64,000 nucleotides of DNA from Hydractinia symbiolongicarpus. Lineage: Eukaryota; Cnidaria; Hydrozoa; Anthoathecata; Hydractiniidae. A program made the position numbers and the translations under genes. The number at the start of each line of letters is the position of its first letter. Position 1 is the stretch's first letter. A model generated the notes under the pieces. That model saw nothing but the letters and a program-made list of their open reading frames with translations, was not told the DNA's origin and did not search any database. This document shows, piece after piece, positions 341-50,272 of the stretch. Location: NCBI RefSeq assembly GCF_029227915.1, contig NC_079886.1, forward strand, positions 23,476,501-23,540,500, in the 5' to 3' direction.

Positions 341-3300
341 GTAAGACAAGTGATAAATTTTTTTAGATGCGAAAAATATATTATTATTGAAATAATACAA
401 ATAACATAAATATTGCGAAATGTTTGGCGCAAAGATGATAGAGGCTAGCAACAATTTTATCGCTAGGAGCAATCTTTAAAATCCTTAACATGTGATCAAA
501 ATCTCTAATCACTGATTGAGTAACACTTATAGCGCTAATAAAGACAGCCTTCTGCCTCCTCGTTCATGCAGGCTAGATACAATGAAGTTCTTCATGGCAG
601 AGGTTTTAAAATGTTAAATTTGTTTACTGTGAAGTAGTAAATTGGTAATGTGCAAAGGAGAGCGCTTGTACAGTAGAAAGTGATTCTGACAATTAATTAA
701 TGAGATATTTTTAATGCGACGATATATTAATTTAGTTTGCAGACATTTTCACACGAGAATTTACAAAAATTAACAAGTTTATTTGATAAATTAATAGCTT
801 GAGAATTCTTGGTTCTGTTTAGTATTAAGGGGCGTGATCATTGAAAGTAACGATATAACTTCTCCTTCTTACAACTGAACACAAAACAGTACGTAGTGGC
901 GTTTCAAGATAACACCCCTACCCGCCCTTTTCTTTCAGTTGCTTTTGTCTTTAATTGGTTTGAGGTTGTATTCAGCTTCAAATTTAATAAATACTTTATC
1001 CAGTATTTGAAAAAAAGCCCTTTTATTCTTCCGGAATATAATTTTAGGGACCCAGGAAAGGAAACGAATATTTTCTTCTGAAGATTGCAAAGATAAAAAA
1101 TTCGATCTTCTACAGACTCGAAAATGTAACACCCAGCCATGTCAGGAATACTTTCACCATTATGGAGCCTGGAGCGAGTGTCATCCAATCATAGATGACA
1201 AAAAATGTTTACATTGGAAATTTATAAATGGCGAGCAACTTCGTAACGTTACCTGTCGATCTTCTAACGGATCGGCTGTCGCGAATGTTTACTGCGAGGA
1301 GTATGACGGTGAAAAACTGAGAACAAGGGTAAATAACTTAAAATAATAACCAGCCATACCTTGAAGAATAGTTTTATTTTTATCCTCCGAGTTCATACTA
1401 ACTGTCACGGATACAAAGCTCTCGAGTTAAACAAAAATATTTTCTCCCGTGTAATCTTTCCTTGCGAAAATCAATACGTTTAAGCCTTCACAACAAAGGT
1501 CTAAAAATCAAAATAATTTAATGGTAGGAAGAATAACGTCCACATTTTGACAATTTGGTAGAGATTCCCACCACAATTGCTTGTTGTTAAAAATGCTGAA
1601 CCAACATGCTCAAACCTGCGTCCATACCTAAAAAGATAATGAATAAACAGTATATTATTAATTGGCATTTCCTACTAAAAACACAGTTTGGTCATTTCCG
1701 GCCAGTATTTAGGAATAAAAACAACATTTTTACATTTTTAGAACAGCTGCGGCGTCCAATGTGAGACTAATTGCGTGCTGTCCACTTGGTCCAGTTTCTC
1801 ACAATGTTCGGCATCTTGTGGAGCTGGAATATCTATACGATCAAGGCGTATATACGCCCAGCCTTCAATTGGTGGAAGGGCGTGCCCAGCTGCTACACAT
1901 AACTTTGTAACGGAAACCAAACCGTGCAAACTAAGAGAATGCTATGGAAATGTTTGGAAAGCAGAAGAATGGGGCGAGTGTATTATGAATAGACGAAAGC
2001 AATGTGGAAGAGGTATATTGTCTTATTGTATATATTTTGCCATGAGGAGGACTGTGTCGAGGAAGCATTGGATAAGGTCTGTAGGCAGAACGAAGTAAAG
2101 CGTTATGTCCGTGTTCTTTTTTCCTTGACAAAGGAGGCCCTTTTAGGTAAATTTTCTTTTTGAATATTTTATGTCTAGAATGAAATAGCTAAATATAAAT
2201 TATGTTCCACATTCGGGGATGACCTTGGGCTTTAAATAAAGTACCTTATGGATAGCCATAGCCAACTTCGTTCTCAGCACATGTTGTCTTATTTTTATAT
2301 TAGGGATAGCGAGTTCACCGTCCCGATATGAAAACATACCACATGGACTGAAAACGAGGTTCATAGATAAGTCAATTCTGAAGTAACCCTCTATATATAC
2401 TTTTTATAATTTGGCAATGAGGAAATATACTTCCAAATAGTTTCGAAAGAATTTATTCCAGTGATAGTATAAAATCTTTGATAGGAATCTAAATGAAGTA
2501 GTTTATCAGTCATAATCGTTAAGCTCCACTGATAACATTCATACATGTTTATTTGCCTGATGTGACGTTTAAGAAAAAAAATACTAATCCAAGAATATTT
2601 TCGAGGATTTGTTTCATTTACTTTATGTGTTTCACTTGTTAAGAACAATTTTTAAGAGTAATCACAAGACTGAAATATTTTTTGTTTTTTTCTCTAAATA
2701 CCACAACAGAACAATTTCCTCCAAAATGTGTTTCAAGATCTTGTGATTTTGCAAAATTATACTTGTGTTCGCAAAGCCGTTGTGGTCGCAAAAAGTTGCA
2801 ATGTTTTGCGTGCATAAAATATTATATCAAAATAGGAATAACTTTTAACTGGTCATGTGAAAATGTAAGAACACTTTAGCCTAAAACCAAATACCCTGTT
2901 TCTTATATTACCCGTTTATACTATGGCACATTTATGAAAAATAGGGATTCTTAAAGGCTTTTTCCAGTCTCCAATAATCAAATTTCAAAGTACAAAAAAT
3001 GTTAACTTCTACGACTTTTTTCTGTATCCATCCTATACATCTTTCCAACAATGTTTGATTTATTTCTTGACAGGAAAACGAAATCGCACTGTATCTTGTA
3101 TTGATCCTGCAACGGGAGACACATCAGGGAACTGCACTGACGCTCCACCAATTACAGAAAAGGGTTGCAAGATATATTGTGCTACAGACCAATGTGTGGT
3201 TTCTGATTGGTCAGAATGGAGTAGATGCGAGGTGAAGGACAATCAACTTATATCACAGCGAACGCGCCAAATTTTACGAGCAGGAAAGGAAAGAGCATGT

Positions 3301-6300
3301 CGCAGATTAAAGGATCGAAAGATCTGTGAGAAGTTTTCATGGAAAGCTAACGCATGGAGCAGTTGTCTTTTAAACTCAGGTAAGGTAGAAATTTGACGAG
3401 CTTATAATTCATTTTCTAATTTAATAGGCAGAACGTATTACTTGAGGAAAGTACTGGGGAGGAGAGTGTGGTAAAATAAAAATATTTGTGCTCTCTTTTT
3501 ACACAGACAATGAAACTTGTGGTGCTGGAATACGTGAAAGACTTGTTGAATGTGTAAATAAACATGGAAAAGCCGTGGACCCATTAAAATGTTATAATAT
3601 TAAGTCAGTCGCACCCCGGATGTATGAGACGTGCGTTATACTCTGCCCAGGGAAATGCGAAGTGTCGTCTTGGAGTGAATGGTCAGCGTGTGATCAAAAA
3701 TGCGACACGGTCAAGTACAGTACTAGACGAAGAGTGGTTGTGAGTCATCCCAAGAGTTGTGGCGAGACAGTTTTAACAGGTAGGCGAGTCATGCGGTGTA
3801 TTTTGAAATGATTTTTTGTTCGACGGGAGGGATCTGTTTTATTGTGTTTACAATATGTTTGTGCCATGTGACAATCCTTATCTTTTTCAATTGACAAGGA
3901 CTTTTGCTGAAAACCCAAGCGAGAGTTCTAAGTCCTTAGTTCTTAGTCAGAAGCAGGAGATGTCTCATCCGGGTAAAGTTGAAGTGAAAATAATTGTAAA
4001 TATATTATATGGCTAGTGTTGCGATAAAAAATACAAAAAGAAATTATGAGATCTGGTAAATTTCTCTTAAACTGGTTTCTAACTAGCTTAGTTAACTAAG
4101 CTTTCTTCGAAAATATCAAATTCAGTTTCTCTCAAACGAAAACTTAGCCGCAAACAAATGTCAATGCAAATCCCTAAAATTCAAATCCACCTCATAGCAA
4201 ACTCCGAATTACAATCAACCAACCACCACAAAGTCGGAGTGATCACGTCTTATCCTTTCTTAAATAATTAAAGAATCCATTAAATTTGTTTGGGTGAGTG
4301 AGGCCATTCACGCTGAAAACAAAAGATTGACCACGTGAGCAAAGAACAATAGAATTAACCAATCACAAAGCGCGGTCAGTATTCTGACCGCAGAAAAATC
4401 GTTTGAGACCCAGCGTGATTTTTCCAGCCTTAACTATTTCGATTTCCTGGTGGTAAGAAAAATTATGCTGGCTAGTTTCTAACTTGCTCTCGTGCATTTT
4501 AAAAAACAAATCATTAAATTGAAGAAGGAAAACTCACAAACAGAAGGAAAGCTATTATCCGAAAGATGATACCACTAAACTGCAGTTGCTAAGCAACTAT
4601 AAAAACAGACGCCAGTGAAAAGGAAGTCTGTCAAATTTGACGACAAGTTATGAGTATGTCGAGAACAGTTTTAGAATGCTTAATGAATTATGACGGCATA
4701 TGAACACTCGAAATTAACAAAATTGTTAACAATAGAAAATTTATCATTATCAATTTCATTCGCGTTATTTTTGGTGGTGATGATATGTGATGGCTTAATA
4801 GTGTTTGACCACAGGAAATAAGTACTTAATTTGCTATGTCGAGGTTAATGATCATTTATGGTTAAAATAGAAAGAGGGCTGGCTGTATTGTAGGGGTACA
4901 ATAAAAGGGTTTCCCTCTCACTCAGTAATATAAATGTCTGATAAAATTTTTCTCTGAAACAATTATTCGTCGGGACAAAATATTCGACACCTGTAGAAAA
5001 TTTATTTGCTTTTGTTTTTAGTTTTTAAGAGTTTTTTTTTATGTGAGATTAAAAAACAAAAAACACTATTTATAGACTACAAATTTTAAGTCAGTATTCT
5101 AACTAATTTCTCTGACAAAATTCTCCCCACCCCACCAAGAATTTGTCACTTTTGTGCGACATGTTTAGGGGAAATCAATTTTCGTAACGTAAAGCAAGGC
5201 CGAAGTCTTTTAAGAGAGGGGCTAAAAGTCATCAAAAATCTAAAAGATCTGTTATAAGCAATAGATTATTCTGGAGGAGTAATACCACTACTTTACCGCC
5301 ACCCAAACATCCAACCACGCACTAACCCACGATAATCTAAACAGGGCCTCTCTAATAAAATAAACCTTTCATTAAAGACTAATAATATATTTCCTCTAAA
5401 ACAAGAAAGTTTTTCTGCATTATAAAAATTTTTCAGTTATGTTACAGTAATCTATTCATTCATAGAATCGTTGTTCTGTCCGATCTACCCCTGCTACACA
5501 TTAGCTGTCAGTGACTGGCATCAATGCGAAGCTGTGCACAAGGACACGTGCGGTGTTGGTCAACAGAAGAGAAGTGCGGTGTGTAAAAGAAGTGATGGAA
5601 AGGAAGTCAGTTTGCCATACTGCATGGAATATGTAACAGGTAAAATAAGAAATACGTTAACGAATTTTTCTTTTGTTAATATTTATTCATTTATTTATTT
5701 ATATAATTTTACCTTTAATCTTATTGTTTTCATGCTGACGTTTGTCTAAAAAAGGAAGACCAATGATACTTTGTCAAAATTTGTCCAAGAAAGGTTTTCT
5801 ATTAACGCTCCCAAAACTGAACTGCGAGAGTTGATCACGAATCGTTAAGTATCAAGAAGAAAAAGCGTACGGGGCCGAATAAGTACCAAAAAAAGAAGAT
5901 GGAATCGGTATTTCAGCAGAATATGAATGAATCTTTCTTTACTTCTACGTATTTTTCAGGAGCCACAAGGCTGACACGTAATTGTCAAATACCATGTTGG
6001 AATGATTGCATAACAACTGATTGGTCCACGTGGTCAGAATGTTTTGGAATATGTGATTATACAAAGAAGCTTTTAATAACCCATGGGTTTACAGTTAGAT
6101 GTCGTTCAATTCTACAAAATTCTACGGCAAATGGCATTCCATGCCCAAACACGTTGCACGAAGAAAAAAAATGTTTCTCCCCAAAATGTTATACTCAAAA
6201 AAGAAGGTATGGTAACTAAGTTGCTAAAACGTATTTCACTTGTGTTGGCAACAAAAGCATAATTTGAGGACCTTTGAAAACTGGTGACTAAGTGTAGTTT

Positions 6301-14980: not shown

Positions 14981-16358
14981 CAGTGAGAAAATGCTCTAAT
15001 GGTAGCTACAAGTTAAAAAAGTTAAAGGATAGTTTTTGTGAAGTGCATCAGACAACAAAAAAAGAATGTTCGTGTAACTTATTTTCATTGATACCGTTTC
15101 CAACGATCAAGAAAGGTCCAGCTTCCAGAAAGATCTGGATCAACCTTGTGAATCGTTTAAAACCAGGCTCAAAAACTAAGTTATTTGAACCTGGAAAAGA
15201 TTCAAGAATATGTTCAGCACACTTTAAAGATTTAAAACCAACTAAAGCTAACCCTTCTCCTACTCAAAACCTTGGTTATGATGTCACAAGGAAGTTCAGT
15301 TCCTTATCATCAATGTTAACACCAAGATCTTCAGTAAAAAAATGCTTAATCCTTCATGTTCTTCTAAAAATTATGAAGTCGAAGAAGTGGATATTTATGT
15401 AAGCTGTCACAGTACTAATCCAGCCACTGATAACTATGAGAAAGACCTTTCCCATTGGGGTGTTGATGCTAATGCGGCATCTTCTTTTGTATTAGAAGAT
15501 CATACATATTTTTTACAATCACAATCTGACTATGCTGGTATCATTAACAAATTTAAAAAGGATAACCTTAAATTAAAGTCAGAAGAAGAATTTTTATTGG
15601 TGCTTATGAAACTTAGATTAGGACTACTATATAATAATTTGGTAGATAGGTTTTATGAGATGAGTTTTAATGAGTTTTGTGATGTTGTTGGCATAATTGA
15701 TTGCTCTGAGATTTTCTTAGAAACGCCAAAACATCTGGAATTACAATCAGCCACATGGTCAGGGTAGAAACACCATAACACAGTAAAATTCTAATCTCAG
15801 TTACACCAAATTCATTTATTACGTTTATGTCGGAGACATACACAGGAAGAATATCAGACAAAGCCATTACGATAGATTCTAATTATTTAGACAGTGTTCC
15901 TCCTTACTCGAGAATTATGTCTGATAAAGGCTTTAATATTTCAAAAGAGTGTGCTTCTAATCAAATTTATTTAACAGTGCCACCTGGTAAACGTGAAACT
16001 TCTCAGATGACGCCACAAGAAATAAAGAAAACAAGTCAAGTACCTTGATCGGACAAACTTTCGCGCGGATTTAATTTCGCGAGGTCAAATAAATCGTATT
16101 TCGCGAGGATTTAATTTCGCGAATTTAGTCTTTTCAAAAATTTCGCGAGGATTTAATTTCGCGAATTCAGGCTTTCTAAAAATTACGCGAGGATTTAATT
16201 TCGCGAATTCTGTCTTAACTTAAAACAAATTTTCACGAAACATTTGAATATCGTAAAAATTGTAAAGGAAAGAAAATGATTTATTGTCATCAGTATCAAG
16301 AATCATGCTTTTTCTTCCGAGTTACATGTCAAAATCTATTTACAAATCATCTTCGTCA

Positions 16359-16922
16359 TCAAAAATTCCTATCTTCATTCTCTTCATTTTCTTCGACCCA
16401 TTCTTCTTCGTCGCTTTCGTCTTCGATCCCGTAATCACTGACGTATTTTGAAGCTGTGGACAAACAAGAAGAATTGACAGCTTGAACATTAGGTTCTTCG
16501 TCTAACATTGGGTCGATGTCGTTAAACGGATCAAGGCTTGGTAAACCGGACATACCCTTGGCTACAGCATCCTTTATCCTGCTACTTGCCAACCCTTCAA
16601 GCACACCTGTTTCCCATCATCCGACGTCATTTCATTGTACATCTCAATAAGCCATTTCGCGTGTAACGGTTTGACAATCGAAAGCTTTAGTGCTACTTCA
16701 ATCGTTTCGAGCTCTTGACCTTTATCCATAGCTTGGGTGATTTGATCTGCGTACCAGGTGATAAACTTCTTTTTCAGCATGCGTTTTACATAGCCATTTA
16801 GACGTCAAGAGGTTGGAAGAGGTATGTGAAATTGGCAGGAACGCTCTCTAGCAATACATGGTTGTCAGACAATACCTTCAAGACAGGACCGGTCATTTGC
16901 TCTTTAAAGACATCCATAATCA
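16359..16922 (-). pseudogene. pogo/Tigger-type (DDE_1) transposase, C-terminal part
   Basis: Reading the minus strand from about 16922: IMDVFKEQMTGPVLKVL, then VPANFTYLFQPLDV, NGYVKRMLKKKFITWYA, KPLHAKWLIEMYN and GWQVAG. These are the last catalytic block and C-terminal landmarks of DDE_1 pogo/Tigger transposases (DVFKGQ...VPANxTxLxQPLD). A Ser/Asp/Glu-rich tail follows to the stop at 16359. Frame changes occur around 16790 and 16600. Everything 5' of the IMDVFK block is missing, so this copy could not encode a transposase. Confidence 0.8.
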
Positions 16923-16925
16923 TTA

Positions 16926-17359
16926 AAGCCGTTTACCGTGATGTTTGGAATCCCTATGAAAATGAAGAGCTTGAATGTCGTTTTGAGAAAAACAATATAT
17001 TTGATATGTTCGCGATCAAAACATGTCGCATCGAAAATAATGAAACAGTTGGTCATTTACCAAGGGAAATTTCTCGCCCTACCAAATATCTTTTGGATAG
17101 AGGGGCTACGGTTGTGGCAAAGCTGACAGCCACCCACTACAGAAGATCGCCTCTATTTCAAGGAGGTCTTGAAATTGCCTGCGAAATAACAGTTTCGATG
17201 CATGGAAGTATCAAGGGGCACATGCTTCTTCGACGCTATCAAGATATGGTGGATGAATTATATTGTCAACCAAAGAATGAGGTCATCATGGGTTCGTTTC
17301 TTGAGAACAATGTTGGCCGTACCGAACCAGCCAGAGCAAAAAAAACGCAAATGCGTTAA
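16926..17359 (+). pseudogene. HIRAN-domain protein fragment carried by pogo element 1
   Basis: From about 16926 the plus strand reads VYRDVWNPYENEELECR, NNIFDMFAIKT, VGHLPREISRPTKYLLDRG and a YRRSP...GGLEIACEI ending. These are the landmarks of a HIRAN domain, found in HLTF/Rad5-type proteins where it binds DNA ends. The very start of the domain is cut off at the deletion junction with the antisense transposase. A ~50-residue basic tail follows to the stop at 17357-17359. The longer open frame back to 16826 is antisense transposase and not part of the gene. I infer a formerly longer accessory protein. Confidence 0.72.
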
Positions 17360-18150
17360 AAAACAGTACAACCAACAGCAGGGAGCAAAGACATCCGAAA
17401 CTTTTTTCAAAAGAGATAAAATAATATTATTTACCGTATTTTTTTACGAATTTTGTTGTAAGTTTTACATAGAAAAAAATAATCGAGAACAAAACATTTC
17501 ACGAGTATTAATTTTCGCGATGGTACAAATTAAAAAAAAATTCGCGAGGATTTAATTTCGCGAATTCAGGCTTTCTAAAAATTTCGCACGGATTTAATTT
17601 CGCGATTTGACTGTTTGCAAATATTTCGCGAGGATTTAATTTCGCGAATTTGGGCAAAATTCGCGAAAACCGCGAAAATTTGTCCGACTAAGGTAGCTAA
17701 GGTTCGAATCCTTGTGGAACAAGTTATTAGGCGGGTGAAGACGTTTTGAATAATAGCAAATGAATTACCATTACCATTGTTGCCTCACTTACACGATATT
17801 TGATAATATGTGCTGCATTGGCTAACTTGAAAAACCCTATTATGAGAATTTAAACATTTTAATAGCATGGAATATTTTATATGTCATTTCATACCTTCAG
17901 ATAAACCTGTAGTCTGGTTGTTTAGGTCATGTATGTACAGATAAGAACTAAGTTTTGCCTTTTTTCAAATTGCTTCTTTCAAATTGCTATAAGAAACTGT
18001 GTTTTCTTTTATGTACAAATATATATACTAACCATATAATAAAGGTATAATTAACACAACGTAAAGCAAGTCCAGTAGTGAATTTATCTTTAACATTTTT
18101 TTACTTAGAAATCACAATTTTAATGATATCTGCTTTTAAAATGTCCTTTA

Positions 18151-26383: not shown

Positions 26384-28898
26384 TCGCCTACACGCATTTC
26401 AAAAGAAAGTAGAACACTAATTGATTCAATTTTTACAACCGATAAATCAAAAATAAACGACTCTTTGGTATACACTAACTCTCTCAGCGATCACTGCCTA
26501 ATCGGAATCAGCCGAAAAGCAAACTGTAAACGCTATCCTCAAAAGAACATCAAAGCAAATGATTATTCAAAATACAACAAAGAAGGTCTAAAAAATAAAA
26601 TTTGCAACGTACCAGGGGAAAATTGTTTAACTGTTACCGACTTAAACCAAGCATGGAACTTATTCAAATACTACTTATCAACTGCAATCAATAAACATGC
26701 GCCACTTAAAGAAAAAACTGTACGTGGAAAATCCAACCCCTGGATAACCAGAGAAATCAGAAACTTAATGAATACGCGTGATTATCATCATCGCCGTTTT
26801 AAACGATCAAATTCTACTGCAGACTGGGAAAGTTATAAATCTTACCGAAACTTTGTAACCAATCGCATTCGTGTTGCAAAGGCAAATCACCTTCGTGCTG
26901 CTCTTAAAAAATCTTCAGCAAATCCAAGAGATTTTTGGAAACAAATTAAGTCGTGCTACCCTACTAAAGATTCGTCAAGTCCGAGCAAAACATTCGTAAT
27001 CAATAGAACAGTACCATCCAATATTCGATCAATTGCGAACAATTTTTGCTCTTTTTTCACCAAAGTTGGTTCAAGTCTCATGAAATCATCAATAACCAAC
27101 TTTACTTGGAAACTGTTCAACATATGTAATTATATGCGCACGATTAATAAAAAGAATGTATCATTTAAATTCCAACCAGTGACAATTAATCAGGTGAATA
27201 GAGTACTAAAATCGGTTAAAACGGCTAAAGCTGCTAATATTGACACTATCCCCGGTAGGATAATTAAAGATATCTCAAACGAACTAGCTGCACCTGTCAT
27301 GTTCTTGATAAACAAGGGTTTGGAAACTGGTACATTTCCAACCTGTGAAAAATCTGCAAAAATAATACTATTGCATAAATCTGGCGATCGCTCAAACATA
27401 GATAACTACCGACCCATTTCCGTACTAAATGTGTTGTCTAAAGTCATCAAACGAATCGTCTACGACCAGCTAGCCGATTATTTAGAAAATCAAGATCTAT
27501 TGAGTGAGCACCAATATGGTTTTCGACGAAAAAGATCTACACATGAAGCGGTTAAATCACTTGTTGAATAAAAGTAAGACAACCAGAGCTCTATTCATGG
27601 ATTTGACCTTTGATACCGTAAACCATGGCTGCCTTCTCCAGAAACTGCCTTTTTATGGTATTACTAGCACTGAAATTGATTGGTTAAGCAGTTATCTTTT
27701 TAACCGAGGTCAAACTGTTTTCATTGATGGAGCATACTCAGATCCTGAAAATATGACGCATGGTGTACCCCAAGGTTCCATTCTGGGTCCATTGTTATTT
27801 ATTCTTCTTATCAATGACTTACCGTGCCAATTGAAACACTGTCGAGTATTGATGCATGCTGATGACACAGATATATATTTATCAAGCAAGTCACTAGATG
27901 AACTTGAACATTGTTTAAATTTGCATGCAAATATCATTCACGATTGGATGAAGGAAAATTGCCTAATTCTTAATTCAAAAAAGGGCTAAACAGAATTTGT
28001 CGTCTTTGCGTTCCGAAAACCACAAGCCTCTGTCAGTATTGTGATCGATCAAAATGATATAAACCAACCAGATTATTATGAATACATTGGGATTCAACTG
28101 GATACTCACCTTAACATGAACCATCACCTTAAAACATACAGGCGTATAACCTCACGCATCAAACTTTTATATAAAATACGTTACAAAATTTCTCCAAATG
28201 TTGCTGAAACCATCTTTAACTCAATGATCCATCCACTGTTCTTCTACTGCTACGACATATTTGGTGGAATGAATAAAACATGGATTGGAAAATTTTTGAG
28301 TCCTTGCTAAGAAGAGCTAAGCACATCATCAGAACCCGCAAGAATTGGTCAACATTCGTCACTCAAAGAAAACGGAAAGTAGCAATTGATGTGTTCACAG
28401 CCGTCAACGATATTACTGTTGACAGCATTTTAAAATTGGTTAGCCATTCGATTAACACCAGAGGAAAGAGATCTAAATTAGTCTTACCTAACATCAAGAC
28501 GGAAGCTGGTCGGAAACTTACGTATTATCAAGGAGCTTTAGTTTTTAATAGTCTCCCCTCTAATATCAGGGAAGAAAAGAGTATGATAAATTTTAAAAAG
28601 TTTTTGAAACAAAGTGAGTTCTAGGTCTATTACCTTAGTTTGAATCCTAAACTCAAACTTTTTCTAATTCCCATTTTTGCTAATTATCTGTTCATAGTCT
28701 GCTATTTGATTCTTATTTTTTTTTCTTTTCTTTTTTTCTAACATTCTCATAATTTTATATATATTATTTAAAACAAAAAACAATTTTGGGTCTTTTTTTA
28801 TTTTGTTTTAACAGGTCACTCGTTGATAACAGTGCAGATATATTATATCATACTGAAGATGTAAACCTGTATAAATATGATTAATAATAATAATAATT
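26370..28898 (+). mobile_element. 5'-truncated CR1/L2-like non-LTR retrotransposon (LINE)
   Basis: The sequence begins within the endonuclease 3' end (SDHCLIGI at 26489) and continues through a linker into a reverse transcriptase. The 3' UTR ends in a (TAA)n tail at 28882-28896. The insertion lies inside the IS3EU-like element and separates the two parts of its HECT gene. The truncation point is near 26370. A simple trinucleotide tail and the RT motifs fit the CR1/L2 (Jockey superfamily) clades. No clear target duplication was identified. Confidence 0.85.
26384..28624 (+). pseudogene. LINE ORF2: endonuclease end and reverse transcriptase, frame-broken
   Basis: Frame-continuous to 27571: endonuclease end (SLSDHCLIGI), PWITREIRNLM, ILLHKSGDRSNIDNYRPIS, NQDLLSEHQYGFRRKRST. 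After a frame change, 27570-27989 gives the palm: FMDLTFDTVNH, GVPQGSILGPLLF and LMHADDTDIYLS. The catalytic box is HADD where functional relatives usually have YADD or FADD. A stop at 27987 and further frame changes precede 28041-28310 (YIGIQLDTHLN) and the C-terminal part to 28624. The copy is inactive. Confidence 0.85.
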
Positions 28899-41377: not shown

Positions 41378-41689
41378 GTAGAATATTTCCTCTGACTATT
41401 ACTACATAGATACCTTAATGCCATTAATCTTCGCGCGCCTTTTATTTTCGCGCACACTATTTTCGCGCCTTCAATTTTCGCGCACCCTTCAAAAACGCCG
41501 ATTCGCGCACCCTTTAATTTTCGCGCACCTCCAAATTTATAAGTGGGAAAATTTTAAAAGTAATTGATAGACGGTTTTTCAGCTTTCAAATGACTCTTTT
41601 CTTGTGGTTTTAAGTAAGCCCGTTGATACAAAATAACTATGATATACTAAACAATAAAACTATTTTGTAAAAACGGGTCTAAATTAATT

Positions 41690-41955
41690 TTCTTTTCAAG
41701 ATTTTCGGTAACACCGGACTTTTTCCAGCCGTTGATGATTATTTCTGGGTGGTTCTGGGCGTAGTCGTTATATTTGGTAATCCATTTAGCAGGCAATGGT
41801 TTGACGACTGAGAGTCAGACATCTACCTTAATTTAATCCGTACGCTTGCCTTCAGACATTTGCTTCGCAATTTCGTTCGAGTACCAGGTTTGCGCTTCGT
41901 CGCGCAAAAAATCCTTCCTACTTTTGTTCACAGTGATATGTAGGACATATCCTTC
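41690..41955 (-). pseudogene. pogo/Tigger-type transposase C-terminal remnant
   Basis: Reading the minus strand: NKSRKDFLRDEAQTWYSNEI, LSVVKPLPAKWITKYNDY and IIINGWKKSGV. This is the same C-terminal block (..VNK..K.F...EAQ.WY...I / KPLxAKWI / GWKxxG) as the remnant in element 1, but diverged in sequence. Two stop codons interrupt it. The catalytic domain is deleted. Confidence 0.78.
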
Positions 41956-42069
41956 GTGAAATCAGTCGTTTCTGTCATTCACGGTCGTTCAAAACCGCGA
42001 TTTTGCGGAAAAAAGTGTGCGCATGCGCTAAAAATCTTAAGCAAAATAAATTTCTCCGACTAAAATTAT

Positions 42070-42076
42070 GACGTCA
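42070..42076. promoter_or_regulatory. TGACGTC-like CRE half-site in putative promoter of the RAG1N-HIRAN gene
   Basis: ATGACGTCATC sits about 370 bp upstream of the accessory gene ATG, in the non-coding centre of pogo element 2 (41960-42440). Because the two gene remnants diverge from this interval, it is where a shared promoter would lie. The motif match is exact, but function is not shown. Confidence 0.25.
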
Positions 42077-42443
42077 TCAACATTGACCTAACCCACTAAA
42101 TACTGTATTTATTACCAAAATAAGCATACATTCACTAATTTTTCCGACTTAATTTGAGAAAGGATGACCAAGGATGCTAATTATTTTCGTACTTGCTGCC
42201 TAGCATTTTATAAACAAACAGGATAGCCGATTAAAGTCGAGAGCGCCACTTCACAAATTTGAGGGTTTTGATCACCTCTCTCTGACTTTTTAACGCAAGA
42301 TTTGCCCAAAACATAATTTTACGAAGTTAGATAAACCCTTAAACTAGACCCCTGTGGTAATACACAGTAGCTGCCACTTTGTTAAAGAACATAAATTTAA
42401 ATTTTTGAGAAGCACACAAACCAGCTTCGATCAGAAAATAAAA

Positions 42444-43333
42444 ATGGCTGACGACCAAAACAAGCATAACGTTTTACTGTCCAAGTTATGTCGAGTATGT
42501 TGAGAACATACAGGAAAGGTCGAAAAAAACAAATTTCCAGCCCTAAAGTTTGCCTCACGAATAGAAAAATGTTTCTACCAGGATGTAACTGGAGATATAG
42601 AAGATGTACACCCACCAAAATTTTCCCTCAGATGCTACTCCTTGATGAAAAATGTTGAAAAAAGGGGAACTACATCTTCAATAAAAATGAAAACGTGGAA
42701 ACCACACAAAGAAGGGGGCACAGAAAATTGTGACACGTGCAGCTTAGGCCTTAAAAAAGCACAAGGACGTTCCAGGCCACAAAAAAACAAGTCAGGCAAG
42801 CCATCTTTGAACAATCCAGTGTGGACAAAAAAAATATCTGAAGAGATAGATAACAAAACGCCTGATGATATAATTCCACAGCAGTATAATATTGAGGACT
42901 TTAAACTTAACCCATCTATTGAACTGTGCATTACTTCTTGTATTATGGTGAAAAATTGGAAACTCGTGTTACTTGTGCTAGATATAGGCCATCCCCCATT
43001 CCAACAGGAGGTTTAGAGATTCCGATTCCCTTGATTGTGCTTAAAGCAGATTCTACGGATGAAGTGTTCGAGAAAATGGAGAATCTGGTTAATAGCTATT
43101 ACATTGAGCCTGATCAGATAGTTGCTGAGGAAGGAGAAGATGACGAAGAAGGCGAAGGAGACGAAATTGATCTTGATATCGAACTTGTTCCTGAGTCTGA
43201 AATAGAGGAGGCCCAAGAGGAGATAAGTGCTCCAATAAGCGTTGACGTAGTACCAGAAACCCGGACCCGAACTGTACCTGAAACCCAAGACATTGGAAAT
43301 ACTCATTTCCGCGTGTCTTTTTATTTCGCGCAC
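42444..43333 (+). pseudogene. Accessory gene of pogo element 2: RAG1 N-terminal-like zinc region plus HIRAN-domain tail
   Basis: ATG at 42444. Residues 15-19 read KLCRVC, then a TGA (42501-42503) stands where RAG1 has the Gly of CRxCG. The frame continues with ASRIEKCFYQDVTGDIEDVH, HPPKFSLRCYSLM, WKPHKE and ENCDTC. These match the order and spacing in vertebrate RAG1 of CRICG, DVxxDVDxIHPxxFCxxCxSIM and WxPHxxxCDxC. One Cys of the FCxxC pair is Ser. The zinc part ends near 42920 (NPSIELC). A deletion and frame change then join it to a HIRAN end, YFLYYGEKLETRVT and YRPSPIPTGGLEIPIPL, and a Glu/Asp-rich tail that runs into the TIR. HIRAN domains bind DNA ends; the RAG1 N-terminal region is a zinc-binding, ubiquitin- and importin-related module. 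A decayed copy. Confidence 0.7.
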
Positions 43334-43381
43334 CTTTCCTGCGTGAAAATAAACGGCACGCGGAAATTAATGGCATTAAGG

Positions 43382-43612
43382 TATGTAATGCTTTATCATG
43401 GACTGCACATATTTGGGAGCACTAAAAGAACTAACAAAATCTCCTGGGGGATGTGGAAAAAGGCAGGAATTCAAAAAGTTTTCCTTTTTAGTTCAAATTC
43501 GAGATTGCCTATACTGACTTTTTACTACTTTAAAAAAAAATCTACAACGGGTTGTTATTACAGTACATTTCCTTATTAATTTCCGCCAGCGATAGCGGAA
43601 TCTTTAAAATGA

Positions 43613-43691
<79 letters not shown>

Positions 43692-44039
43692 TAGATAGAG
43701 GCAGCGCAGCTAGGCTGGACGCCCGAAACTTATCCAGACTTAAGTCTAAATCTTTGAGTTTTGTATTTTGGAAGCCTATGTGAGCTTATTCAGTCATAGA
43801 AACACAGAATTTATGTCAAAGTTACTTCACCTATCAACGAGCCTTTTGTTGTGAAAACTGTACGATATCGAGCCTCATACCCCAAAAGTCTTGTCACATA
43901 ACTTTAACAAAAAGTATATATAATGGCAGACAAACTGCGAGCAATGTCATAAACACTTTGTTGAAAGTTTGTTTGCATAGAGTTCTTGAAGAGGTTTATA
44001 TTTATACAATTTATACAACTCTTAACTTTGAGGGTTGTC
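43382..44039. other. No gene recognised; contains microsatellite
   Basis: Apart from the (AGAC)n/(AGAT)n array at 43613-43699 I see only A/T-rich sequence with no supported coding or RNA feature. Confidence 0.4.
43613..43699. repeat. (AGAT)n(AGAC)n(AGAT)n compound microsatellite
   Basis: About 87 bp: a few AGAT units, a long uninterrupted AGAC core and AGAT units again. It starts just after CGCCAGCGATAGCGG. Confidence 0.95.
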
Positions 44040-47074: not shown

Positions 47075-50000
47075 CTCTGAAGCAAGTGGAAACTGCTTAT
47101 ACAGCTCGGTATCATTAATGTTGTCAGGTGACAATTCATTGTGCCATGATTTAAGGTTACTTATTTCTTTAGAGTTGTTTATTAATGCTGAATCTTATTC
47201 TACGCATCCCCTTCTATACTCTATTTGAACTATTTGAACAAGGACAACTAAATAATAACCAACTTTTTAAAAATTTCAAGCAAGTATTTGATATATCTGA
47301 TAAAGATTACCCCCATGGTTCTTCACTTACAGAATTAGTGCAATTTGAAGCTCTGTATAATTGCAAAAACGGCAGATGGGCAGGTCTTTTTGACATACTT
47401 GCCCTTTCTACTGTCATTAATCACAATATAAATGTAGCATACCCCGAATGCGGCGAAACATGTTATAAGTTATTGTTTGCGGAGAAAGTTCAACCTCGAA
47501 TCCCCAATGAAAACATAGCTTCTCACATAGAGCTTTGTTATGTTATGCATGGTTATGTATCCAGACCAGGTGAAAATTATAAACCAAACCATTTTGTTCC
47601 CTGTATACGTTTGTTAAATCATAGTAGTAAGCGTAAATCCTTTTCCAATGAAAAAAAACTTGTAAAAAAAATTAAAACTGTGGGTTTTGCTAGTGATAAA
47701 GTACAAGCAAAGTTATCATTTTGGACCGATAAATGCAGCGATAAGCTTGTATTACCTAAAGTAAAAAGTATGTCCACACAAAACAGCTTGCTGATAACTA
47801 AAATAAATAGTACTGATTCAATAAAAAGTTCATCTACGTATAATTCTAAAAATAGTTTAACGGTTTCCATTTCTACTTCCAATGCCAGCCAAGTTTTTGG
47901 AAAAAATTCTACTTTTACTTCATCTGCTAATCTTTCTTCCCCTGTATCCTTTTTGTCCCAAAAACCTTTATTATTTCCTTCATTTTTCTCACAATCATCA
48001 TCAAAAGCAGGTTGCTCATCTCTTGTCACTTCTTCAATAAATGAGTGGGATGTTGCTGGATATAGGGACAAATGTAAAGGTCTTAGGCCAGAAGAATTAT
48101 ATAATTTGATAAAAAATGTTCACAAATGTGAAGACAATTTTGTTTTTCCTAAAAAAAAATCTAGAAGTTTTTGTTGGGAATGGCTTAAGTCATTTAGTTG
48201 GCTATGTTATTCTGCAAGCCAAGATGGTGCATACTGTCTTCCTTGTGTTTTATTTGGAGACAAATTTCCAACCAAGGCATATAAAATAAAGAAACTGTTG
48301 CGTGAGCCATTAACATATTGGCCTGATGCATGTGCTGCTTTCAAGCGCCATGAAAATGTTCCCAATGGAATACATAGTGATACCATAGTTGCTTTTACCT
48401 CACTGATAAATGCTGTTGAAGGTAAATCCGAACCAATTGATGTCTTAATTGACAACCAAAGGAAAACTGTTGTATTAGAAAACCGAAAAAAACTGATTCC
48501 CATTACAGATGCCATCATATTGTGTGGGTGGCAAGGTATTGCACTAAGAGGACATCGTGATGATGCTAAGTATCATCCAGTTCCAGGGGAATATTCAGTA
48601 GGGAGAACTGGCAATTTTGTAGAATTGCTGAATTTTCGAGTTCGAGGTGGTGATACTGATTTGAAAGAGCATTTATCAAAATGCCCTAAAAACGCAACAT
48701 ATATTTCCAAAACCACTCAAAATGATTTAATAAATTGTTGTGGTGAGGTAATAACTAATAAAATTGTTTCTGAAATTAGGAAGAATAAATTTTTCCCTGT
48801 CCTGGCTGATGAACTTTTAGATTGTTCTAATAAGGAACAACTTTCTTTAGTAATCCGTTATGTTGATTCAAGTAGAAATATCAAGGAAGATTTTCTTAAA
48901 TTTCTTCATTGTAAAGAGGGTTTAACAGGTGCAGATTTAGCCCAGCTTATGTTGTCTGCTCTGCAAAATTTAAATCTAGATTTCAGTAATTGCAGGGGCC
49001 AGGGTTATGATGGGGCTGGTAATGTTGCTGGACATTTAAATGGTTTATCAGCTCGTCTTCTGTCAGTTAACAAAAAGGCTATTTATGTTCATTGTCATAG
49101 CCACCGTTTAAACCTTTGTGTTGCTAAATCTTGTTCCATCACGCTGGTAAGAAATGCTATGAACAAAATTAAAGAAATTTCCAACTTCTTTAACTTTTCA
49201 CAAAAAAGGCAACAGCTCCTTGAAAAAAATGTCATTCAATATTGTCCTAATTCTGATAAGTCTAAACTTAAAGATGTCTGCCGAACACGGTGGATTGAGC
49301 GTATTGATGGCATGGAAGTTTTTCAAGAACTTTATGTTGCAATTTATGTGACCCTTGATGATATGATAGTTAATTCAAATAAAATTGTCAATAATGACAC
49401 TGCCACCAAAGCACACTCTTTTTAATGAAATTTCTACCTTTGAGTTCATTGTATCTGTTGTTGTGACCAGAAATGTTTTGGCACTAACACATGGTGTTGC
49501 AACTTTGCTTCAAGATAGAAGTATTGATATTACAGATAATGTTCAATACATTACTAATTTGAAAAATACAACTATGAGTTGCAGGAACAATGTAGATTTT
49601 TTTCACAACTCATGGTACAAGGAGGCATTAGATGTTGGGGAAAGTGTAGGAGTTGAGGAGAAAATGAAACGGGTTATCAGAAGGCAAACATTAAGGGACA
49701 ACCAACCTGCTATCAGTCCAAAGGATTATTATAAAAAAGCCTTAACCATACCAATTTTGGACCATTTAAACAGTGAACTTAACTCGAGGTTTGATTTTGA
49801 AAACTTTGTAGTGTATAATGGATTGTGCATTGTACCAGCCAAAGTAGTTTCAATGGTTTACTCCAACAAAGATTGGAAGAGCAAATTTAAAAGGTTTGTA
49901 GATTTTTACAAATCTGACATGCCAAATCCTCTTGCTCTAGAGTCTGAGTTAGAGCTGTGGGAAAAGTTTGCTTTGGATTATCAGGGTACAAGACCTGAAA

Positions 50001-50272
50001 CCATTGTTCAAACTTTAAAGTCAATAAACCTGTCTCTATTTACTAATATAAATGTTGCTATTCGCATTCTTGCTACTATCCCTATTACTTCATGTGAATG
50101 TGAAAGAAGTTTTTCATCATTAAGACGATTAAAAGATTATTGCCGTAGTACCATGACAGAAGATCGTCTTAATGGCCTTTCCTTAATGTACATTCATCAA
50201 GAAATTATTCCAAAGGTAGATGATGTACTTAATATTTTTGCCCGAGATCCTAGAAGATTACAGTTAATTTAA
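47075..50272 (+). pseudogene. hAT transposase with N-terminal OTU/vertnin-like domain (two frameshifts)
   Basis: After the acceptor ttgttttag, SEASGNCLYSSVSLMLSGDN is an OTU-like motif (usual GDGNCLF) with the Cys kept. LRLLISLELFINAESYSTHP follows, and after a frame change near 47215, WAGLFDILALSTVINHNINV completes the vertnin/OTU pattern. A Ser-rich linker (about 47640-48030) leads to a TTF zinc finger (FCWEWL...YCLPCVLFG), a DUF4371 region (GRTGNFVELLNFR), the hAT core (LADELLDCSNKEQLS, GQGYDGAGN, HCHSHRLNLC, CRTRWIERID) and, after a one-base shift near 49412, the C-terminal dimerisation block (TSCECERSFSSLRRLKDYCR) with the catalytic Glu. OTU proteins are ubiquitin-type cysteine proteases; activity here is not shown. 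Almost intact otherwise, so recently mobile. Confidence 0.85.

Follow-up and report, generated by a model that had tools for sequence, protein, structure and literature searches.

Two Transposons, One inside the Other

The element at 41413-43381 of the window (the whole stretch of 64,000 nucleotides analysed, C12:23476501-23540500 of the Hydractinia symbiolongicarpus genome) is almost certainly two transposons, one inside the other: a decayed pogo element with a HIRAN gene and, nested within it, a piece of a Chapaev-type transposon that brings the RAG1-like sequence. An earlier note on this DNA had described a single pogo-type transposon carrying a RAG1 N-terminal-like gene fused to a HIRAN domain. 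Each of the parts seen there is real, the pogo, RAG1-like and HIRAN sequences all being present beyond chance as judged from match scores and identities; their joining into one gene is not. The features concerned are as follows, L numbers denoting loci of the same genome.

41413..43381, no strand: pogo-type element with inverted ends; TA at 41411-41412 and 43382-43383
41671..41943, minus strand: C-terminal remnant of the pogo transposase; 82% identical over 91 aa to the DDE region of L010
41939..41979, plus strand: left part of the interrupted HIRAN frame (VGHILREISRFCH); 98% identical to L009 3387-3427
41976..41979, no strand: left copy of the target duplication CATT
41980..42928, plus strand: left-end fragment of a Chapaev-type transposon, 949 bp (CACGGTC...CTGTG); borders set by empty sites
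42444..42928, plus strand: RAG1-like (Chapa domain) frame; one stop, truncated at the start of the RING
42929..42932, no strand: right copy of the target duplication CATT
42929..43290, plus strand: right part of the interrupted pogo HIRAN frame, with an acidic tail at its end; right limit approximate
16043..17693, no strand: second pogo-type element of the window, likewise head-to-head in layout
16926-16577, minus strand: pogo remnant of the second element
16931-17416, plus strand: HIRAN of the second element

The inverted ends and TA duplications reported in the earlier note were confirmed: the arms at 41407-41454 and 43340-43387, 48 nt long including TA and flank, are 88% complementary, with TA on either side. 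The pogo transposase frames lie on the minus strand, where the C-terminal remnant recognized in the note was likewise recovered, and the RAG1-like frame and the GGLEIPIPL tail lie on the plus strand. The short pogo pieces of the window element have no Pfam match of their own; the L010 transposase frame, to which the remnant aligns, matches Pfam DDE_1 at 27.7 bits (cut-off 22). About 1.6 kb of the centre is missing from the window copy by comparison with L009.

When searched at the DNA level against its own genome (481 Mb, 76 contigs), the composite element splits into two sets of matches. Query positions 568-1518 of the element recover one copy on C13 and one on C6, both nearly identical and in surroundings free of pogo, and positions 1-567 together with 1512-1969 recover a pogo family without 568-1511. 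In L009, L010 and L014, which are all the fetched copies that have both sides, the flanks are contiguous and read CTGTCATTACTTC; at the same site the window reads CTGTCATT, followed by an insert that runs from CACGG to GAACTGTG, followed by CATTACTTC. The insert (41980-42928, 949 bp) has CATT at either border, and CATT occurs once in the empty sites. Once the insert and one CATT are taken out, the joined flanks form an open HIRAN frame that matches L009, to which 42929-43093 is 85% identical over 55 aa. Two other readings were rejected: a hAT element with an 8-bp duplication, suggested by BLAST overlap, since the letters show 4 bp, and a deleted RING in the window tail, since L009 shows the tail to be HIRAN.

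The RAG1-like frame holds a single stop, TGA at 42501-42503, and differs in phase from the HIRAN remnant, the change falling at the 42928/42929 junction; because of this stop and shift in phase there is no fusion protein. Identity of the insert to its relatives L011 and L012 is 98.6% and 97.8%, respectively, whereas that of the pogo pieces to theirs is 87-93% for pieces longer than 180 bp and 82-98% for shorter ones; the insert is therefore younger than the pogo copy. In sum, a pogo-type element, from a family with head-to-head transposase and HIRAN genes, has lost its central 1.6 kb or so, and the left-end Chapaev-type piece lies in its HIRAN codons between the copies of CATT.

A GACA/GATA microsatellite lies to the right of the pogo element, at 43614-43700. 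By eye, the window also contains reverse-transcriptase-like frames of 395 and 161 aa at 26384-27989, probably a LINE; frames of 750 and 300 aa at 47173-50272 that resemble a hAT-type transposase with a TTF-type zinc finger; and exon-like frames with thrombospondin type 1 repeats at 1011-6219, probably from a host gene.

HIRAN Is the Second Gene of the pogo Element

The HIRAN assignment made in the earlier note stood through the frames of sister and fuller elements, but not through the window tail alone (42926-43290), which has no match to PF08797. Against this model (cut-off 24.7 bits), the fuller elements L060 and L062 score 32.4 and 26.1 bits; below the cut-off are the fuller element L061 (20.1 bits), the frame of the second pogo-type element of the window at 16802-17359 (22.2 bits) and the L009 and L010 frames (18.6 and 14.4 bits). 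The HIRAN frames of L009 and the second window element are 40% identical over 93 aa (E 1e-21). A protein search with the latter frame found 446 relatives among 560 candidates, of which the 120 listed are 113-220 aa long; the search admitted lengths of 0.55-1.75 times the query, and longer HIRAN relatives may exist outside this range. PF08797 is matched at E up to 0.01 by 20 of 28 aligned frames (27 relatives and that of the window). Compared with solved structures, the HIRAN profile A1 has the HIRAN domain of HLTF as its five best matches (E 7e-4 to 1e-3), the sixth being VapC21 at E 0.28. The same profile gave 35 pattern matches in viral_contigs and 279 in genome_contigs, none of them confirmed as a relative. 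A single-sequence fold of the HIRAN frame had a mean pLDDT of 38.6. The Pfam model Voldacs, which is also weakly present in the L010 frame, was set aside for the window tail at 16.5 and 17.2 bits against a cut-off of 22.1.

We then turn to the surroundings of these genes. A HIRAN search of the genome yielded 150 scored matches out of 662 candidates, and the best-scoring 30 loci were cut out, among them L030, the window's own element; because these are the best-scoring of 150, near relatives are over-represented. Pogo transposase sequence lies within the 1.5-kb flanks at 26 of the 30 loci, and in all 26 it is on the opposite strand and upstream of HIRAN, in a head-to-head arrangement. The remaining four (L048, L050, L052 and L053) are copies of the same elements minus most or all of the transposase. 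Outside this set, L009 and L014 share the layout, and L010 has a head-to-head pogo of its own, plus pogo matches in the opposite orientation that come from adjoining sequence. HIRAN is thus the pogo element's own second gene.

Intact Elements, Conservation and Recent Mobility

Both genes have open frames in three elements, L060, L061 and L062, whose inverted ends are 3.4-3.6 kb apart (L054 and L060 are one locus, as are L049 and L061). From stop to stop, the transposase frames are 540, 549 and 551 aa long and the HIRAN frames 222, 234 and 236 aa, respectively; each transposase contains DDE_1, in which 35 residues separate the second D from the third. An intact HIRAN frame of 222 aa is also found at C12:23576314. 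The transposases of L060 (L060:1771-3390) and L062 (L062:1624-3276) end in a hydrophobic-acidic tail, FDIIIDDEEE and FDFIIDDECNE, which we take to resemble a SUMO-interacting motif; that of L061 does not end in this way.

Between families, HIRAN has pS values of 0.71-0.85 (saturated) and pN values of 0.28-0.44, and the transposase has pS values of 0.82-0.84 and pN values of 0.26-0.37. Since synonymous sites are saturated while pN stays lower, both proteins were conserved. Within families, dN/dS was 0.35 (L044, L042) and 1.10 (L031, L032), from two pairs with few changes. L060 has four further family members, L055-L058, that match it at 99.96% identity over 2.4 kb, and L059 reaches 99.96% over 2.26 kb and L053 99.9% over 0.9 kb; moreover, 22 of the 150 HIRAN matches in the genome share one score and a 222-aa frame. 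This near identity, together with the shared score and frame, indicates that the L060 family moved recently.

Pogo transposons that have HIRAN as a companion gene, and that moved recently in this genome, are apparently unreported. No report of HIRAN genes in pogo elements was found in a search judged by titles and the opening lines of abstracts, and a term search of the accessible text of two pogo surveys (PMC7386202 and PMC7325037) did not return the word HIRAN. The HIRAN protein may therefore be an undescribed companion gene of pogo, a novelty that is provisional because Repbase and most subscription papers fell outside the search.

A Possible Role for the pogo HIRAN Protein

Near their C-termini, the HIRAN frames of L060 and L062 carry QKDIRNFF and QKDIRSFF, respectively, which we take to fit the PIP box, Qxx[ILMV]xx[FY][FY], and hence to be putative PCNA-binding motifs. 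Of the 30 loci, 7 have the canonical motif, each a member of the L060 family, and 11 a weaker form; the other 12, some of them decayed, have none, and the motif is absent from the HIRAN frames of L009, L010 and L014. Among the 120 relatives listed, loose ad hoc patterns picked out a DIR-type motif in 61, a SIM-like end in 30 and both in 27.

HIRAN binds 3'-OH ends, and the Drosophila pogo transposase binds PCNA. The HIRAN domain of HLTF is described as bringing HLTF to stalled forks (PMC4666394). We tentatively suggest that the HIRAN protein of the intact pogo relatives might serve as a helper, binding to exposed 3' ends of DNA and, via the PIP-type motif, to PCNA. By analogy with HLTF, the pogo transposons of this genome might be a two-gene system, in which a transposase works with a conserved HIRAN protein, equipped in some families with a PIP box at the C-terminus and a SIM-like tail; this helper might dock the transposition complex on 3' ends at replication forks or at the excision gap, and the element would thereby move, or be restored, in the course of replication. 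A helper of this kind would link the transposition of pogo with replication forks or with repair at the cut site, and, if it does bind forks and PCNA, would offer a testable route for coupling a cut-and-paste transposon to host replication.

HIRAN might instead be a passenger of pogo that plays no role in transposition, acting for example solely in its own spread or in a host-facing task such as countering silencing. We regard this as rather unlikely: the deletion copies L048, L052 and L053 do retain HIRAN without the transposase, but HIRAN is conserved between families, as the transposase is, and the head-to-head layout has been kept across families that share only about half of their HIRAN residues.

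The Nested Piece Is the Left End of a Chapaev-Type Transposon

The RAG1 N-terminal homology proposed in the earlier note was borne out by profile search. The frame at 42444-42941, with X at the stop, matches PF12560 (RAG1_imp_bd) with E 4.5e-11 and 43.3 bits (cut-off 23.3), the part downstream of the stop alone scores 40.7 bits, and solved RAG1 chains align to the frame at E 0.0028. The relatives L011 and L012 run on beyond the window breakpoint into a RING domain and transposase-like frames. A 311-aa frame of L012 scores 41.7 bits against PF12560 and reaches or exceeds the cut-offs of four RING models; among solved structures it best matches the RINGs of TRIM proteins (E 2.4e-7), and over its residues 33-234 it aligns with RAG1 147-357 (E 3.3e-6). 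Behind this Chapa-RING frame, one transposase-like frame of L012 matches DUF1280 (E 7.7e-11), and the other four scanned gave nothing above a Pfam cut-off. The candidate motifs NCLFC, HMLEDH and GEQGAE occur in this order in the L012 frames; C(2)C and H(3-4)H motifs of the DDE transposase are common to the CMC group and RAG1 (PMC12730594).

The L012 copy has both ends, spanning 5278 bp from CACGGT to ACCGTG with AGAA on either side; similarity between the L011 and L012 copies breaks off after 4.7 kb. The same ends occur in a non-autonomous family of 25 matches, from which 11 copies were fetched; all 11 are flanked by a perfect 4-bp duplication, and together they represent 9 different sites. 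Duplications of 3 to 4 bp and CAC/GTG termini are given as hallmarks of Chapaev (PMC4079192), and a RING finger is described as coming after the RAG1-like Chapa domain in two Chapaev subgroups (Kapitonov and Jurka, 2007, as cited in Kapitonov and Koonin, 2015; PMC4411706). By the ends, the 4-bp duplication and the Chapa and RING sequences ahead of transposase-like exons in its 5278-bp relative, the 949-bp piece is the left end of a Chapaev-type transposon. As PMC4411706 describes Chapa then RING in Chapaev, a RAG1-like module in this group is already known. The duplication is 4 bp rather than the 5 bp of RAG and RAG-like transposons, and the RAG1 core model had no match in the six L012 frames scanned, both of which set the element apart from them.

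In the genome, 127 of 175 candidates match the Chapa-RING frame, counted as frames, and 19 of the 127 share one score and a 347-aa frame. A Chapa-RING-like match with a stop (37% and 33%) also lies about 4.4 kb beyond the end of the window, at C12:23544908-23545569. A protein search with the broken Chapa frame (166 aa) gave one relative among 12 candidates, P0001, 62% identical over 45% of the query and itself lacking a Pfam match; a search with the full 311-aa relative gave none at E up to 1 among 399 candidates. A single-sequence fold of the Chapa-RING protein had a mean pLDDT of 34.0.

How the Piece May Have Acquired Its Right End

The right border of the piece lies at the start of the RING, and its termini are CAC...GTG with a 4-bp duplication. 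L011 and L012 both read GAACTGTTCA where the window has GAACTGTG, followed by CATT. The likeliest reading of this border, and one we consider probable, is that Chapaev transposition moved the piece by way of its true left end together with, on the right, a stand-in, the GTG inside the RING exon. Against this, neither relative shows a GTG end there, and the step would require one changed base. The outcome is a dead composite from which no fusion protein is made.

Alternatively, the 949-bp piece could have been pasted in by break repair as filler DNA, the CATT copies being due to chance or to repair microhomology. In keeping with such an origin, the piece does not close on the right with a true Chapaev end, and neither near relative has GTG there; against it, on the left the piece begins precisely with the Chapaev end CACGGTC, the same 4 bases stand at both borders and are single in the empty sites, and the piece terminates in GTG, as Chapaev ends do. 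We therefore consider repair unlikely and favor transposition from a stand-in end, of which the nested copy may be an example on the part of Chapaev transposase. Such use would be akin to the use of cryptic RSSs by RAG.

The remaining explanation, that of the earlier note, in which a pogo-type transposon took up a RAG1 N-terminal-like gene as cargo and fused it to HIRAN, is extremely improbable: all three parts do lie inside one pair of pogo TIRs, but the site is empty in three of three fetched pogo copies that retain both sides, the RAG1-like piece is flanked by the CATT duplication, its relatives sit outside pogo in a Chapaev-type element, the stop and phase change break any fusion frame, and longer relatives place the two parts in different genes of different transposons. 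A false lead on the origin of RAG1 is thereby removed, the RAG1-like module belonging to a Chapaev-type element, an already reported carrier, and not to pogo.

Comparison with Known Systems

The Chapaev-type relatives agree with the Chapa-RING Chapaevs as described in PMC4411706 in having Chapa then RING, transposase-like exons, CAC...GTG termini and a 4-bp duplication; the difference is that the window holds only the 949-bp left piece, ending inside the RING exon. N-RAG-TP of Aplysia (PMC8355894) is likewise a transposon with RAG1 N-terminal-like sequence. By its description, however, the Aplysia element is wholly RAG1 N-terminal-like, whereas the relatives found here add transposase-like frames, and the two are set apart on that basis.

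The HIRAN domain of HLTF, as presented in PMC4666394, is the sole solved family matched by profile A1 below E 0.01. In contrast to HLTF, the pogo HIRAN frames are about 200-236 aa long and come without helicase or RING, and some have a PIP-type motif near the C-terminus. With known pogo transposons, finally, the elements share the TA duplication, the DDE_1 transposase and the spacing of 35 residues between the second and third D; they depart from those covered in the accessible text of the surveys (PMC7386202, PMC7325037) in having a second gene, placed head-to-head with the transposase, for a HIRAN protein.
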